In this document: piece after piece, positions 3,126-14,119 of the stretch | How positions within the stretch are numbered: the first letter of the stretch is position 1 | How the letters are laid out: each line of letters starts with the position of its first letter | Origin: a virus | Strand: one strand, 5' to 3' | DNA: 20,447 nucleotides | IMG/VR virus record: IMGVR_UViG_3300046012_000026 | Location: 1 to 20,447 of that record | The notes under the pieces: model-generated | The model's input: the letters and a program-made list of their open reading frames with translations, nothing else | Told to the model about the DNA's origin: nothing | Databases searched by the model: none | Position numbers and translations under genes: made by a program

Positions 3126-6100
3126 TCATCCCGTGCCGCCGAGCCTGTGCCCGTCGAACATGCTTCGGTTGGCTTGAATGTTGCTCAGGCTCACGTACTG
3201 CCCGGTGACGACGACTTCGAAGGTGTCGCCGACGAGCGCGTCGAAGTGTGCCGCCGCGACGACGTCGACAAAGTCGCCCGGCAGCGTGCTGCCGACTGCC
3301 TCGCGTATGGCGATCTGCACGCCGCTGCGCCGTTGAATGATGTTGACGAGATGCCAGATGTTCCCCGAGCCGCCCGTCTGCTGGAACGTGCACGACGTCG
3401 ACACGTAGTACACGCCCGGGGTAGCGACGACGAGCTGCTGCTGATTGGCGCTCAGCGCGAGCCCGCTGCCGCTGTTGCTGCCGTTCCATCCGACGACCTG
3501 CGCCGCCGTACTCATCTGATACGTCGACGCGAGCGTGACCGAGCGCCACGCGGGCAGGTCGAGCCGTATCTGCGCCCAGAGCATCGCCGTCGTGCCGACG
3601 ATGTCGGTCGCCTTGCACGTCGTACCCCAGCGGGTGCCGCCGTACAGCGTGCCGCTCGTGACAGCGAGCATCGCGCCCGCCAGCTGTAGCGGCGTCGTCG
3701 CGTCGGCGGCGCGCTGCCAGACGCCGTTAGCGCCCGTGCCGACGGTGACGACGGTCCATACGCCGTTATTGACGTGCCCGCCCGGCACGGCTTTCAGCAC
3801 ACGGTCGCCCAGGGCGAGCGCGACGCCGTCGACCGTGCTCGGCGCGGCGCTCGTCGGCACGCTCGTGCTCGTGTCGACGGCGCGTACGGCTTCCTTCGGC
3901 CAGCTGTTGCCCGGCAGTACGGCGACGCCTGCGCCTGTGCGGCTCGACGTCGACGCGTCGACCCGCGCGACGGTCGCGTTGCTGTCTACCGAGCCGACGC
4001 GGAACGTCAGTCGGCAGACGGTGTGACCCGCTGGGATGACGAACGATCGGCTGTACTGCGTGAACGTCGCCGACAGCGGCGTCGCCTCTGAATTCTGCTG
4101 TGCCGAGACGCCGTCGAACGGCCCGGGCGTGCCCGACGCCGCCGACATGACGCCGATCGTTAGTGACGGGTTGCCGCTCACGGCGCGCGCCCAGATACCG
4201 ACGTCGACCGTGTCGCCCGGGTTCACGGTGAACACGGATGACAGAGCGAGCTGATTGTTCCCGGCGCCCGCTGGGACGGTGACTGTCAGCGAGCGCGCGC
4301 CGAACAGCACATCGCTCGTCTCGGTGCCGACGGTGCACCCGCCGTTCTGCCAGAACGTGTCCCAGCTCGTGAGCGGCGGGCCCCAGGTTTCAAAGCTCGG
4401 GTTCAGGTGCAGCGCCGACGCAGCTGAGCCGAGCGCGAGCGGCACGACGACGCCCGTCGGCGTCTCAAAATACGGCAGCCCGTCGGCGGCGAAGTACGGG
4501 CCCGCTGCGTGCCCCGCTGCGGGCAGCGCGGGCGCCGCGCCCTGAAACGTCTGCACGAGCGGCGCGTCGAGCGTCTTGCTGCCCGTGATCGTCTCGGCGC
4601 CCGTCTTGTGCACGACGGCGGCGTCGCTCGCTGCGCCGACGATGCGCGCGTCGTTCCCGGCAGCGGCCTGCTGCGCGCCTGTGCCGAGCGTGCGCAGCGA
4701 CAGCGTCGCAGCAGTGCCGTCTTTGTTCGCCGCCGCGACGTCAGCGTCGACGATCACGCCCGCCGCGATCTGCGGGTTCGGGTAGCTGCCGCTCAGGTCG
4801 CCGCCCGCTGCACCGTTCGGCGGGCGCGGGTCGACGAAACGTGCGTCGTTCCCGGCAGCGGCCTGCTGCGCGCCCGTGCCGAGCGTGCGCAGCGAGCCCG
4901 TCGCTGCGACCGCGTCGACAGTCATCGGGTCGCTTCCCCCGGGCTGATGTGTGCCCGCGTGCAGCGTCGGCGTGCGCGCGTTGCTGAGCCGCGCGTCTGT
5001 GCCGCTGACGGCCTGCCTGTCGCCCGCGCCCAGGGTCCGCAGCGACGGCGTCGCGGGGATGCCGTCTTTGTTGGCGGCAGCGACGTCGCCGTCGACGATC
5101 GTGCCGTCGACGATGTGCCCCGACGTGATGACGTTCGCGGCGACGCTCGGGTTCGGGTAGGTGCCCGACAGCTGCCCGCCTGCGGGCCCGCTCGGCGGCA
5201 ACGTCGTCGGGATGACGCCCGGCGCGAGATCGGCGGCGACGATCGTGTTGTCGGCGATGTGCGCGCTCGTGACCTTGCTGGGCCCGATCAGCGGGTTCGG
5301 GTAGGTGCCCGTCAGGTCGCCGCCCGCTGGGCCCGATGGCGGCAGCGTCGTCGGGTGGTGAGCGTCGACGTACGCCTTCGTCGCAGCATCCTGCGGGTTC
5401 GTCGGGTCGGCGGTCTGCGAGACGCGCTGCAAACCCATGTTCATGATCGAATTCGGAACCCGGATCTGATCGAGCGTCACGCTGCCTTCCATCGCCCGAT
5501 CAGTCGCCGACGCGCCGTGCCCGAGCTGACGCAGCGCGGGCACGCCCGGCAGTGCGGTGCCCGTGCTGTAGCCCGTCGGCAGGATCGTGTCGTTCAGGTC
5601 GGTGATCACGACCGCGCCCGCGCGAATGTCGGGGTTCGGGTACGTGCCGCCCAGGTCGCCGCCTGCCGCACCCGACGGCGGCAACGTCGTCGGGATGACG
5701 CCCGGCGCAATCTTGACGCCGGTCACTGCCGCGTCAGCGAGCGCGGGCGTCGTGACTTTGCCTGCGCCGATCGTCGGGTTCGGATAGGCGCCCGTCAGGT
5801 CGCCGCCTGCCGCGCCGCTCGGCGGCAGCGAGCTCGGTACCGACGGGATGACGCCCGGCGCGATGTCACCCGCGACGATCGTGCCGTCGGCAATCTTCGC
5901 CGACGTGACAGCGTTCGGCGCGAGCTCGGCGTTCCCGATCGTGCCGTCGACGACCTTGCTCGCGTCGACGCTGTTCGGCGCCAGCTTCGCGAGCGTCACG
6001 CCGCCGTCTTTGAGCCCGAGCGTGTCGACGGGGATCTCGATACCGACGTTGTCGACGTTCACGTGCAGGTCGGTGCCGACGAGCGTCAGCCCGGCGCCCG

Positions 6101-11900: not shown

Positions 11901-12343
11901 TCGACGGCGTCTTTCGTCTCGCCGCCGTAGGTCGCGGCGAGATCCGACGCGGTGCCGATCAGCCCGAGCGTCGAGTCGCGCAGCTTGTCTTGCTGCTCGC
12001 CCTGATTGAGCAGCAGCGATCCGATGATGTTCGCGCTCTCGCGGTACTGATTGCCGCTCAGCCCGAACGCGTCGGCTGCTCGTCTGCCGTCGCGGATGAC
12101 CTGATCGGCGAACTTGCCGAAGACGGCCTGTGTGCCGCCGAGCGACTGCTGTGCCGCCGACGCTGCGTCGATCGACGCTTTGCCCAGCAGCGCGAGCCCG
12201 CCCGCTGCGGCGACGCCCGCCGCTAGGGCGATCTTGCCGACGGCCCTGCCGAACGATCCGAGCTTGCTCTGCGACTGATCGAGCGCGCTCTGTAGCGAGG
12301 AGTTGTCGCCGACGATCGCGACTTTGACTGTCGCATCAGCCAT
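8981..12343 (-). CDS. Tape measure protein
   Basis: The 1120-residue protein spans the tail lumen and sets tail length; using about 0.15 nm per residue, a known rule of thumb, the tail would be roughly 165 nm. It begins MADATVKVAIVGDNSSLQSA and has a hydrophobic segment at about 38-54 (IALAAGVAAAGGLALLG), a second around 358-373 (LPLIIAGYIGLKAA) and a Gly/Ala-rich pair of segments at about 476-505 (AVGGPIGAGIGGLAGLMYTL). Long Gln/Ala/Lys-rich helices fill the rest, including a probable coiled coil near KQAAKRSKAILDDLSKRYR. No peptidase or lysozyme motif was recognised. AGAGGAG precedes the ATG, and the stop overlaps the next ATG (ATGA). Confidence 0.92.
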   Translation of the reverse strand: MADATVKVAIVGDNSSLQSALDQSQSKLGSFGRAVGKIALAAGVAAAGGLALLGKASIDAASAAQQSLGGTQAVFGKFADQVIRDGRRAADAFGLSGNQYRESANIIGSLLLNQGEQQDKLRDSTLGLIGTASDLAATYGGETKDAVDALASAFKGEFDPLQNFGITLLQSKVNLEAMRLAGVKTTADFGKLSSATQTAYKRQATLSLISKQGAIAQGQFAKQSQTLAEQQQILGAQWDNLKARIGKALLPVVSALFARLNDDLMPTLRRLAKQYLPEVQAALENMVSGDPSAKLGEIGDSLGDIDWQSMGQSVGDLADTLHELGPALAGVSVESVNSSLKVFSTLIGFAADHLTLLRKVLPLIIAGYIGLKAAQTLNNIAGRDSLIGLGLQLVATRRLIVANRELAVVIREVNGAQGVAAGVTATTSGTLATAEKSTSKLAAAAKGAAGIAGIGALTVGMQQTDSATGALLTTLGGAATGFAVGGPIGAGIGGLAGLMYTLVVNTKDAGAAAQDSYREIAAIDPVEQAKKSLGDLKDTLDQVTGAYTGATRAAALRKLGDAGLIETADKYGISQRTLINAALGQADALRQINPLIADYQGQVKAADDAQARLAEDANNFTDTGFTKAAGEQYDALELQKKAAQGSIAELEKMPGVLKDAGREIRATSAATADYSGKLKGIPPQVKTVIQEEGIEPTARAIADLTRKYELTPKQVKTLIAATGADTSARQVQTLIDRMNALHDEDVYVTTHLITVHGSNKPALGPQGEQTQRAAPKPQEQRQQSDKMALYGERLGDAFGKGAAKGASKHSAALAQSLFGPIGKGAQLTADEIRDALGKATDYVRQIVDKRVKDDKQAAKRSKAILDDLSKRYRLLRANAKAQQQNNDALTHAVDVAQKFHDYANSIRDTFVSFGDITQLGRSDTGKVSLTKLLAELRKRAADAAEFQRLVAQLAAQGLSQTTIEQLTAQGPEAALATVRAIVSGGQTAVDQIAELERQIAASGGALGQTLADKFDVGGNQLGTVAADALVTQLQAHQKDLNDTARRMAAALAAAVKAELAEVKPTKAKGAKQPSGEAVKGGEKQRVTVTLTSQQVSQLERGRQIQLDLDAYRSAGGRARA

Positions 12344-12344
12344 G

Positions 12345-12805
12345 TCAGCGACTCCTCTCGTTCACGATGTCGACGAACGCTTCGACTTCCCAGCCCGTCA
12401 GCTGCTCGTACTCGCTGGGCTGCACTCCTGTCGCCAGACAGAACGCGGCCTTGCGCTGCGCCCGCTCGGCGCTCAGCTCGGCGATGTCGACGGCTCGTCT
12501 TTTCCCGCTTCGTCTTCGTCGTCGTCGTCGGCGGCAGCTGACGACAGCCCGAGCTCGCGCGTGATGTCGGTCAGCGTGCGGCTGCTCATGTAGTCGTCGT
12601 ACTTCGATCGCGGCTCGTGACGGCGGTACATGACCCAGCCGAGCGCGCCGAGCAGCCCGGCCTGCGGGTGCCGTTCGTTGCCGAGCGTCGTGATGCTCTG
12701 CGCGGCCTGCCGTTCGGCCATCGCCGTTTCGGCAGCGGTCAGGCTGTCGATGCCCTTCGGCTGCACGACGTCGTCGGGCGGCTCGGGCTCAGGTACGGCT
12801 TGCAT
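12345..12805 (-). CDS. Tail assembly chaperone GT, made by -1 ribosomal frameshift
   Basis: This is the long form of the tail assembly chaperone that helps load tube subunits on the tape measure protein. Translation follows the short G frame to GCG GGA AAA, where the slippery heptamer GGGAAAA occupies 12506 to 12500 in exactly the X XXY YYZ register, then shifts -1 and continues for 51 codons to a TGA at 12347-12345. The extension reads LSAERAQRKAAFCLATGVQP followed by SEYEQLTGWEVEAFVDIVNE, a typical T-domain. The product is about 153 residues from ATG 12805 (162 from ATG 12832). The stop is one base before the tape measure ATG. The arrangement is that established for lambda G/GT and most siphoviruses; the shift itself is inferred. 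Confidence 0.85.
12473..12805 (-). CDS. Tail assembly chaperone G (short form)
   Basis: The unshifted product is 110 residues from ATG 12805. It contains MAERQAAQSITTLGNERHPQ, LLGALGWVMYRRHEPRSKYD and MSSRTLTDITRELGL, then an acidic stretch (AAADDDDEDEAGKDE) and stops at 12473. The acidic segment overlaps the slippery site. I prefer ATG 12805 because AGGAAAGGGGAACGC immediately before it closely matches the leader of the tail tube gene (AGGAAGGGAAACGGC); ATG 12832, overlapping the gp10-like stop, would add nine residues and is the alternative. Position directly before the tape measure gene is diagnostic for this family. Confidence 0.85.
   Translation of the reverse strand: MQAVPEPEPPDDVVQPKGIDSLTAAETAMAERQAAQSITTLGNERHPQAGLLGALGWVMYRRHEPRSKYDDYMSSRTLTDITRELGLSSAAADDDDEDEAGKDEPSTSPS
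12500..12506 (-). promoter_or_regulatory. Slippery heptamer GGGAAAA for -1 frameshifting
   Basis: The minus-strand heptamer GGGAAAA is in the right register (codons GGA at 12505-12503 and AAA at 12502-12500 in the zero frame, codons 110 and 111 counted from ATG 12832). After the slip the tRNAs re-pair on GGG and AAA, an allowed pairing, and the next codon is AGA. The sequence belongs to the same class as lambda GGGAAAG. The zero-frame stop is 22 bases or more downstream; I did not identify a clear downstream pseudoknot. Confidence 0.85.
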
Positions 12806-12831: not shown

Positions 12832-13212
12832 TCAGCCGAGCCCTTCCTTGCGAATGTCGCGGCGGATCTCGGCAGCCAGCGCATCGGCTGCCTGCGGGCC
12901 CTTCGGGTCGGCGGCGCGCTGCGCGAACAGGTGCGCGGCGATGCCCCTGCGTGACCAGCCGAAGTTTTGTACGCCCGCGTACGGCACGCCGCCGAGCGTC
13001 ACGCCGCCAGCTCGACGGGTGGCGCTCGACGCGATGCCTGCGGCGAGCCGCCCTGTCACCTTCGGCGCGTAGTTGCGTTCGGCGGCTGCGATCGCGTCGG
13101 CGACGCCTGCGAAGACGGCGTGCATGTCGTCGACGTCGTGCGACAGCCTGCCCAGGCGACGGGCGACGTCGTCGGCGCCCGTCATCTCGACCCGTACGAC
13201 GTCGCCGCTCAC
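12832..13212 (-). CDS. HK97 gp10-like neck/tail-completion protein
   Basis: A 126-residue protein with the gp10-family pattern: an N-terminal strand (VVRVEMTGADDVARRLGRL), a long helix (AVFAGVADAIAAAERNYAPK), then VTGRLAAGIASSATRRAGGV, GVPYAGVQNFGW and a C-terminal helix (ADALAAEIRRDIRKEG). In HK97-like phages this family sits at the head-tail joint. Here it lies after both tube-like genes and before the chaperone, not in its usual place between adaptor and terminator. It starts at GTG 13212 overlapping the previous stop, and its own stop overlaps a possible chaperone start (TGATG). Confidence 0.75.
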   Translation of the reverse strand: MSGDVVRVEMTGADDVARRLGRLSHDVDDMHAVFAGVADAIAAAERNYAPKVTGRLAAGIASSATRRAGGVTLGGVPYAGVQNFGWSRRGIAAHLFAQRAADPKGPQAADALAAEIRRDIRKEGLG

Positions 13213-13610
13213 GTCGTCACCCGCGTCGGGTTCTCCGTGCAGGTGAGCCGCGCATCGAACGCCCAGCGCGCACCCGCCTCGCCGCCGATCGGCGGTTTGC
13301 GGTCGACGGTGACTTCGCCTGTGAACACAGGCGTCGACGTCGTCGGCGCGTCGACGCCGTACGGATTGAATTCGTACGGGATCGGCACGTACGCGGGTGT
13401 GTCCCAGAGCAGCGACCAGAACGAACCCGCGCCGTAATCGGGCAGCCCAGACACGGTGAAAAACCAGCGCTTGTCGTTACCCGCGACGACGTCGCCGAAC
13501 GTCACGAGCTCGGCGTCGGCGTCTTCGTTGTCGAGCACGATCGACGTCGAGTCGCAATTGATCTCGACGCTGCCGAACGTGAGTGACAGCCGCCTGCCGT
13601 CGATGCGCAT
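13209..13610 (-). CDS. Second tail-tube-like protein (paralogue of upstream gene)
   Basis: This 133-residue protein is similar in layout to the gene just upstream: an early strand (RLSLTFGSVEINC), VTFGDVVAGNDKRWFFTVSG, the shared SG..DYG motif (SGLPDYGAGS), a central Trp/Tyr-rich stretch (FWSLLWDTPAYVPIPY) and a late GGEAGA element matching GGDAGA in the other copy. It therefore probably shares the tail-tube fold. It could be a minor tube subunit, a tube initiator near the tip, or a decorating protein. The ATG at 13610 follows GAGGAAG at rather long spacing; its stop overlaps the next GTG start. Function is inferred from the paralogy. Confidence 0.6.
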   Translation of the reverse strand: MRIDGRRLSLTFGSVEINCDSTSIVLDNEDADAELVTFGDVVAGNDKRWFFTVSGLPDYGAGSFWSLLWDTPAYVPIPYEFNPYGVDAPTTSTPVFTGEVTVDRKPPIGGEAGARWAFDARLTCTENPTRVTT

Positions 13611-13613
13611 GCG

Positions 13614-13697
13614 CTAGCCCGCTTCCTCGCTGCTGTCGTCGACCTGGGCGACGTCGTCTTCGCTACCGAGCTCGCTCGGCGCTTCCCGCAAAGACGT
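13614..13697 (-). other. Acidic -1 frame extension after the tail tube stop (candidate recoding product)
   Basis: Between the tail tube stop (13700-13702) and the next gene (ATG 13610) lie 89 bases. In the -1 frame relative to the tube gene they read TSLREAPSELGSEDDVAQ followed by VDDSSEEAG and a TAG at 13614-13616, filling the gap to within three bases of the next ATG. The composition is protein-like, while the zero frame reads an Arg/Lys-rich shadow. The last sense codons are GTC CCT before TAG, so a peptidyl tRNA-Pro could slip from CCT back to CCC and continue. No ribosome binding site precedes the only candidate start (a TTG), which makes an independent gene less likely. Production of the extension is unproven. 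Confidence 0.4.
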
Positions 13698-13699
13698 GC

Positions 13700-14119
13700 C
13701 TAAGGGACCGTGCCGTCAGTGATCGCCCCGACCACGGCGAGCGCGATGTCGCCAGTCATCGCCGCACCCGCGTCGCCGCCGAAGGGCGTGTCGTTCTGCG
13801 GCTTGCAGGCGAACGATCGCGTCGAGCTGCCGACGGTGAGCACCGCGTCGATCTCGGCGTCGGTGATGTAGGCGGTATGCAGCATGTCGAAGACGCTGTC
13901 GGGCGTGCCCGGCGCGACGCCCGACGTGTGTCCGTAATCCTGAAACCCGCTGATGTTGAGCGTGTACTTCGGCGTACCGCTGACGTCTTCCGCACCGCAG
14001 AACGTCGTCAGCGTCTCGGCGCCTTCGGGCTCGTCGACGAGCTGCGCTGTCGTCAGCTGGCACTCGACCTGATCTGTGTCGAGCATCAGCGTCAGCGTCT
14101 TGATCGAATTGATTGCCAT
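13700..14119 (-). CDS. Major tail tube protein (probable)
   Basis: A 139-residue, beta-rich, Thr/Asp-rich protein likely to stack as the tail tube. It begins MAINSIKTLTLMLDTDQVEC and contains VSGTPKYTLNISGFQDYG, a strand pair typical of tube proteins, and NDTPFGGDAGAAMTGDIAL near the end. The ATG at 14119 is preceded by CAGGAAGGGAAACGGC, a strong ribosome binding site. Its location between tail terminator and chaperone genes fits. The next gene downstream encodes a recognisable relative, so which of the two is the main tube subunit is inferred from the better ribosome binding site here. The end of the gene has a possible shifty stop (CCT TAG) discussed separately. Confidence 0.72.
   Translation of the reverse strand: MAINSIKTLTLMLDTDQVECQLTTAQLVDEPEGAETLTTFCGAEDVSGTPKYTLNISGFQDYGHTSGVAPGTPDSVFDMLHTAYITDAEIDAVLTVGSSTRSFACKPQNDTPFGGDAGAAMTGDIALAVVGAITDGTVP

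Follow-up and report, generated by a model that had tools for sequence, protein, structure and literature searches.

In the Bacillus phage SPP1, the last codon of the tail tube gene before the stop is a proline codon, and by shifting between CCC and CCU the ribosome produces a minority of C-terminally extended tube protein (PMC6316719). The extended form, gp17.1*, is found together with gp17.1 at about 1:3 in the tube and is dispensable (PMC6316719, PMC8718954). Extended tail proteins are likewise made, by a +1 shift, from the tsh genes of the Listeria phages PSA, A118, and A500, in which a proline codon stands right before the stop in CCC_UGA (PMC5009743), and in MTP-TpeX of the lactococcal 936 phages, with CCC_UAG (PMC4759559). 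For the Lactobacillus phage A2, a −1 frameshift that extends the major tail protein is cited in PMC5009743, and the extension is described as Ig-like. That phages seem indifferent to the direction of the shift has already been remarked for the coat and Ig-like extensions of Listeria and other phages (PMC5009743). Another relevant group of signals are the Z_ZZ.N tetramers of the IS3 family and other insertion sequences, where a single tRNA slips by −1 and a strong structure lies about 5 nt downstream (PMC4066793). In E. coli, six tetramers, C_CC.U among them, clearly exceeded background, and they did so only in combination with a strong downstream structure, in assays with a spacing of 5 nt to the structure; the −1 frameshifting across the six was 0.26–5.6%, the tetramer alone being weak (PMC4066793).

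The window analyzed here, a virus record of 20,447 bases with a GC content of 69%, carries on its minus strand a set of late genes in the order portal, protease, capsid region (assigned from position only), tail terminator, TT1, TT2, tail completion, tail assembly chaperone, and tape measure (Table 1). At the last proline codon of TT1, the apparent tail tube gene, some ribosomes very probably slip by one base and thereby add a short tail to the protein, as judged from the sequences of the window and its relatives. SPP1 shifts by +1 at CCC_UAA and gains an FN3 domain of 87 aa, whereas the window combines a −1 site, C_CCU_UAG, and a downstream stem with an acidic tail of 29 aa. The Listeria and 936 phages differ in the same way from the window and four of its relatives, in which the site is of the −1 type with a stem; two other relatives (L033 and L041) carry the Listeria-type CCC_UGA and are the only TT1 genes that fit a +1 shift. 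With A2, TT1 would share the direction, and with the insertion sequences the single-tRNA tetramer slippage ahead of a structure, although the latter serves transposases while in TT1 the stop follows the tetramer directly and the product is structural.

Table 1. Features of the TT1 region in the window and TT1 endings of the related genes.
Sequence	Feature	Coordinates	Strand	Description
Window	TT1, apparent tail tube protein gene	13700..14119	−	139 aa; ends in ACG GTC CCT TAG
Window	TGA closing the −1 frame upstream	13716..13718	−	three codons 5' of CCC
Window	Putative shift site CCCTTAG	13700..13706	−	0 frame CCT (13705..13703) TAG (13702..13700); −1 frame CCC (13706..13704) TTA
Window	−1 extension	13614..13703	−	29 codons + TAG, TTA GGC ACG ... 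TAG: LGTSLREAPSELGSEDDVAQVDDSSEEAG
Window	Putative stimulatory stem-loop, outer 9-bp stem	13655..13696	−	CGUCUUUGC (13696..13688) with GCGAAGACG (13663..13655); 6 nt past CCU
Window	Inner 6-bp hairpin of the putative stem-loop	13680..13675 with 13670..13665	−	GCCGAG with CUCGGU
Window	TT2, paralogous tail tube-like protein	13209..13610	−	PHROG 4574, E = 4.8e-19
Window	Chaperone frameshift, canonical	12506..12345	−	0 frame GCG GGA AAA (G_GGA_AAA)
Window	TT1 end, −1 class			GTC CCT TAG; 29-residue extension
L009	TT1 end, −1 class	3480-3593 (mini-domain)		GTC CCT TAG; 65-residue extension closed by a helical mini-domain of 35–38 aa
L002	TT1 end, −1 class			ACC CCT TAG; 30-residue extension
L003	TT1 end, −1 class	4564-4674 (mini-domain)		ACC CCT TAG; 58-residue extension closed by the mini-domain
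L032	TT1 end, −1 class	604-717 (mini-domain)		GCC CCT TGA; 58-residue extension closed by the mini-domain
L033 (identical in four contigs)	TT1 end, +1 class	2507-2617 (mini-domain)		ACG CCC TGA; 67-codon extension closed by the mini-domain; no stem
L041	TT1 end, +1 class	3518-3622 (mini-domain)		ACG CCC TGA; 67-codon extension closed by the mini-domain; no stem
L004	TT1 end, in-frame class			CCG CCT GTC, no stop; acidic tail VAAFDASASDSDETDDELATASNY; no shift site, no stem
L044	TT1 end, no-extension class			ACC TGA; runs straight into the chaperone gene; no shift site, no stem
L046	TT1 end, no-extension class			CCG TGA; runs straight into the chaperone gene; no shift site, no stem

The TT1 of the window gave no family match at E < 0.001, while its relatives match the major tail protein family PHROG 4574. 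TT1 aligns with its paralogue TT2; TT2 matches the same family, and its homologues in Microbacterium phages are annotated as major tail proteins. The structure predicted for TT1 was of low confidence (pLDDT 59), and its best PDB matches in Foldseek were tail tube proteins, namely those from monocin, Sf11, lambda, and a gene transfer agent; comparison of the TT1 and TT2 sequences with PDB sequences returned nothing credible. The family matches of the relatives, the paralogy with TT2, and the Foldseek matches of the low-confidence model together suggest that TT1 encodes a tail tube protein. In L032, L044, and L046, TT1 (with its extension in L032) is followed by an apparent tail assembly chaperone gene with no TT2 in between, and TT1 is therefore presumably the tube protein of these phages. 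In the window, the two paralogous tail tube-like proteins lie in tandem (13209..14119, minus strand). Microbacterium phage Biscayne has a TT2-like protein only and the three relatives just named have TT1 only; two related major tail subunits were remarked as odd in the Rhodococcus phages Peregrin and Grayson (PMC13313380). The tail assembly chaperone of the window has its own frameshift, the −1 frame of which ends in TGA just ahead of the tape measure ATG at 12343, and in L002 the frame and the arrangement are the same.

An earlier note on this DNA had proposed that tRNA-Pro slips from CCT to CCC at the end of TT1, yielding a C-terminally extended tube protein. The details on which it built were found as described: the GTC CCT TAG ending of TT1 (minus strand, 14119..13700), the acidic −1 tail of about 29 residues, correct in position and sequence, whose TAG lies three bases ahead of the TT2 ATG at 13610, the 89-base gap between TT1 and TT2, and the TGA at 13718..13716, which closes the −1 frame upstream so that any shift is confined to the last few codons of TT1. 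Its citation of PSA as a phage that uses a +1 shift was also correct (PMC5009743). The stem 6 nt past the site, the +1 and in-frame relatives, and the identity of TT2 as a paralogous tube-like protein go beyond it.

The heptamer CCCTTAG occurs only once in the window. CCU is a rare codon, accounting for 11 of the 263 proline codons in the window genes (4%), compared with 66 for CCC. The computed sizes are 139 aa and 14.3 kDa for the short form of TT1 and 168 aa and 17.3 kDa for the −1 extended form, and the extension contains nine D/E residues and one K/R, with a pI of 4.05. The +1 frame is closed after 12 codons and the site reads C_CCT_TAG, so the CCC-stop of a +1 shift is absent from the window. 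No Shine-Dalgarno-like stimulator was found within 30 nt upstream in the four phages scanned, such an element being optional for a tetramer-type signal. At this GC content, 82% of the −1-frame start points within the window genes remain open for at least 30 codons, and the open −1 frame of the window alone is thus not significant. It is the comparison with relatives, not the single sequence, that lifts it above chance.

Scanning IMG/VR with TT1, TT1 alignments, a TT1 DNA pattern, and the extension yielded nine further distinct TT1 genes. No TT1 relative was found among annotated phages by tblastn or in bacterial genomes by alignment scan, and all matches from a pattern search of bacterial genomes were weak or due to chance; L024, the strongest, was rejected as it sits in an unrelated reading frame. 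Seven of the ten distinct TT1 genes carry an out-of-frame extension behind the stop, five in −1 and two in +1. The −1 class comprises the window, L002, L003, L009, and L032, all of which have C_CCU followed by a stop and a −1 frame open to the next gene. The earlier note had named stops or indels in this frame of relatives as evidence against its reading; the frame is open to the next gene in all four other relatives with C_CCU-stop, and every indel that separates the extensions of the window and L002 has a length divisible by three. C_CCT-stop is missing from L004, L044, and L046. Where the site is gone, the extension has moved with it, being reached in +1 in two genes, fused in frame in one, and missing in two, and in all eight extended cases it ends at the next gene or a few bases from it. 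The relatives support the reading of the earlier note.

The slippery tetramer C_CCU is in the right frame in 5/5 phages of the −1 class. Since the codon before CCU varies (GTC, ACC, or GCC) and could not re-pair in the −1 frame, the only step common to all would be the change of CCU to CCC. Downstream of the tetramer, the five phages have perfect stems of 9, 9, 12, 11, and 9 bp that begin 5–6 nt past CCU, while in the five genes that lack a −1 extension stems at offsets 5–7 reach only 4–6 bp. This split by class (5/5 vs. 0/5) has a chance of 1 in 252 under random labels. In the window, L002, L003, and L009, the nine stem pairs are 100% paired although both sides have changed in five of the nine, and sliding the stem partner by 1–3 columns reduces the pairing to 34–57%. 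Elsewhere in these contigs, 2–3% of positions have a 9-bp stem when any of three adjacent offsets is allowed. When codons were resampled with the protein preserved, a stem as long was obtained in 2.6% of cases for the window, 2.2% for L002, 1.5% for L003, 3.9% for L009, and 18.6% for L032. The total folding energy around the site was not unusual and is not usable as evidence; as, in addition, the stem criterion was picked after the folds had been seen, we regard the evidence for the stem as good but not overwhelming. A downstream structure at about 5–9 nt is thus present, with moderate significance.

The extensions of L003, L009, L032, L033, and L041 have a common domain, M[AT]NTKAE...TKA, although it lies in −1 in three of them and in +1 in the remaining two, so that the frame varies from relative to relative while the product stays. 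Of the extension, only the acidic part is present in the window and L002, and the helical mini-domain is absent from the window. The extension domain gave no credible match in Pfam, NCBIfam, or PHROG, or among PDB folds (the best Pfam match, FANC_SAP with E = 0.018, was below the cut-off), and an Ig-like or FN3 decoration was found neither in the window, with its acidic 29-mer, nor in the relatives, with their helical mini-domain of 35–38 aa. The comparison of synonymous and non-synonymous change proposed in the earlier note came out in favor of a coding extension for the relatives but not for the acidic linker. The dN/dS of the extension domain was about 0.3–0.6 for eight pairs out of ten, with 0.79 and 0.93 for the other two, and for the +1 extension of L033 and L041 it was 0.55 vs. 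0.32 for the tube body. Between the linkers of the window and L002 it was about 1.1, which indicates no purifying selection and is uninformative. Neutral linker sequence would fit a part of the protein in which only charge and length matter, which in itself proves nothing.

The segment could instead be an independent small gene, with its own start or translated by re-initiation after the TT1 stop. The window has a TTG five codons past the site, L003 and L009 have an ATG where the helical domain begins, and in L032 a tandem ATG ATG is located directly at the TT1 stop. However, these start positions are not conserved, the stretch from the shift site to the ATGs of L003 and L009 is open as well, and in L004 the tail is fused to TT1 in frame. 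Moreover, the −1 frame of L002 contains no ATG, GTG, TTG, CTG, or ATH between the site and the stop and is therefore reachable by a shift only. Independent initiation is disfavored by this frame, and we consider it quite improbable. It is very improbable that the segment is a non-coding spacer, i.e., a chance open frame at high GC and at most an RNA element or decayed sequence. The high background openness of −1 frames and the linker dN/dS of about 1 would agree with a spacer, but five phages share a homologous domain under moderate purifying selection, each extension stops at the next gene, the changes of frame follow the site, and neither an intrinsic terminator nor an Rfam match was found in the region. 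That a missing or extra base has put an in-frame gene out of frame through an assembly or sequencing error, as the in-frame tail of L004 might suggest, is hardly credible, as five divergent contigs carry the same site, followed by either UAG or UGA, and the +1 version occurs in two different sequences, of which one is shared unchanged by four contigs. Stop readthrough was rejected because the extension is not in frame 0.

We therefore consider it highly likely that the extension is a C-terminal extension of TT1 produced by programmed −1 ribosomal frameshifting at C_CCU_UAG. The majority of ribosomes would terminate at UAG and release the 139-aa protein. At the rare CCU, the stem 6 nt downstream would hold the ribosome while UAG delays the next step, and tRNA-Pro could then move one base back, from CCU to CCC, after which reading would continue with UUA GGC ACG to give the 168-aa protein. 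Given the low efficiency of such tetramers in E. coli, only a minority of the subunits would be of the long form. By analogy with gp17.1* of SPP1, the extension, which is acidic in the window and in several relatives consists of a linker and a small helical domain, probably decorates the exterior of the tail, and in virions it may serve adhesion or stability. L004, in which every TT1 copy has the tail, thus tolerates a full set. TT1 would belong with the SPP1 and Listeria type of extended tube proteins.

In the open-licence literature, we found no description of a tube gene that shifts by −1 at C_CCU-stop, or of a single family of tube genes that combines −1, +1, in-frame, and missing extensions and uses a CCCU run for both shifts. 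What thus looks new is that the proline stop site is of the mirror-image −1 kind and that the direction changes between members of a gene family. We think it fairly likely that the CCCU proline run at the end of the tube gene is a two-way slip site, with evolution alternating among −1, +1, in-frame fusion, and loss but preserving the kind of extension, so that selection acts on having an extended subunit and not on the recoding route. Where CCU is in frame and a stem follows at 5–6 nt, the ribosome would slip back to CCC; where CCC is in frame and only a stop codon follows, it would slip forward to CCU. Such extensions are missed by annotation, being short and, in one relative, without a start codon. 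The natural series in TT1 (−1 with a stem, +1 without, in-frame, and none) offers a way to tell apart what the stop, the tetramer, the stem, and codon rarity each contribute. The frameshift-extended tube proteins that we found described are mainly those of phages infecting low-GC Firmicutes, for the most part with +1 proline stops, and the TT1 family would be their −1 mirror image in GC-rich phages.
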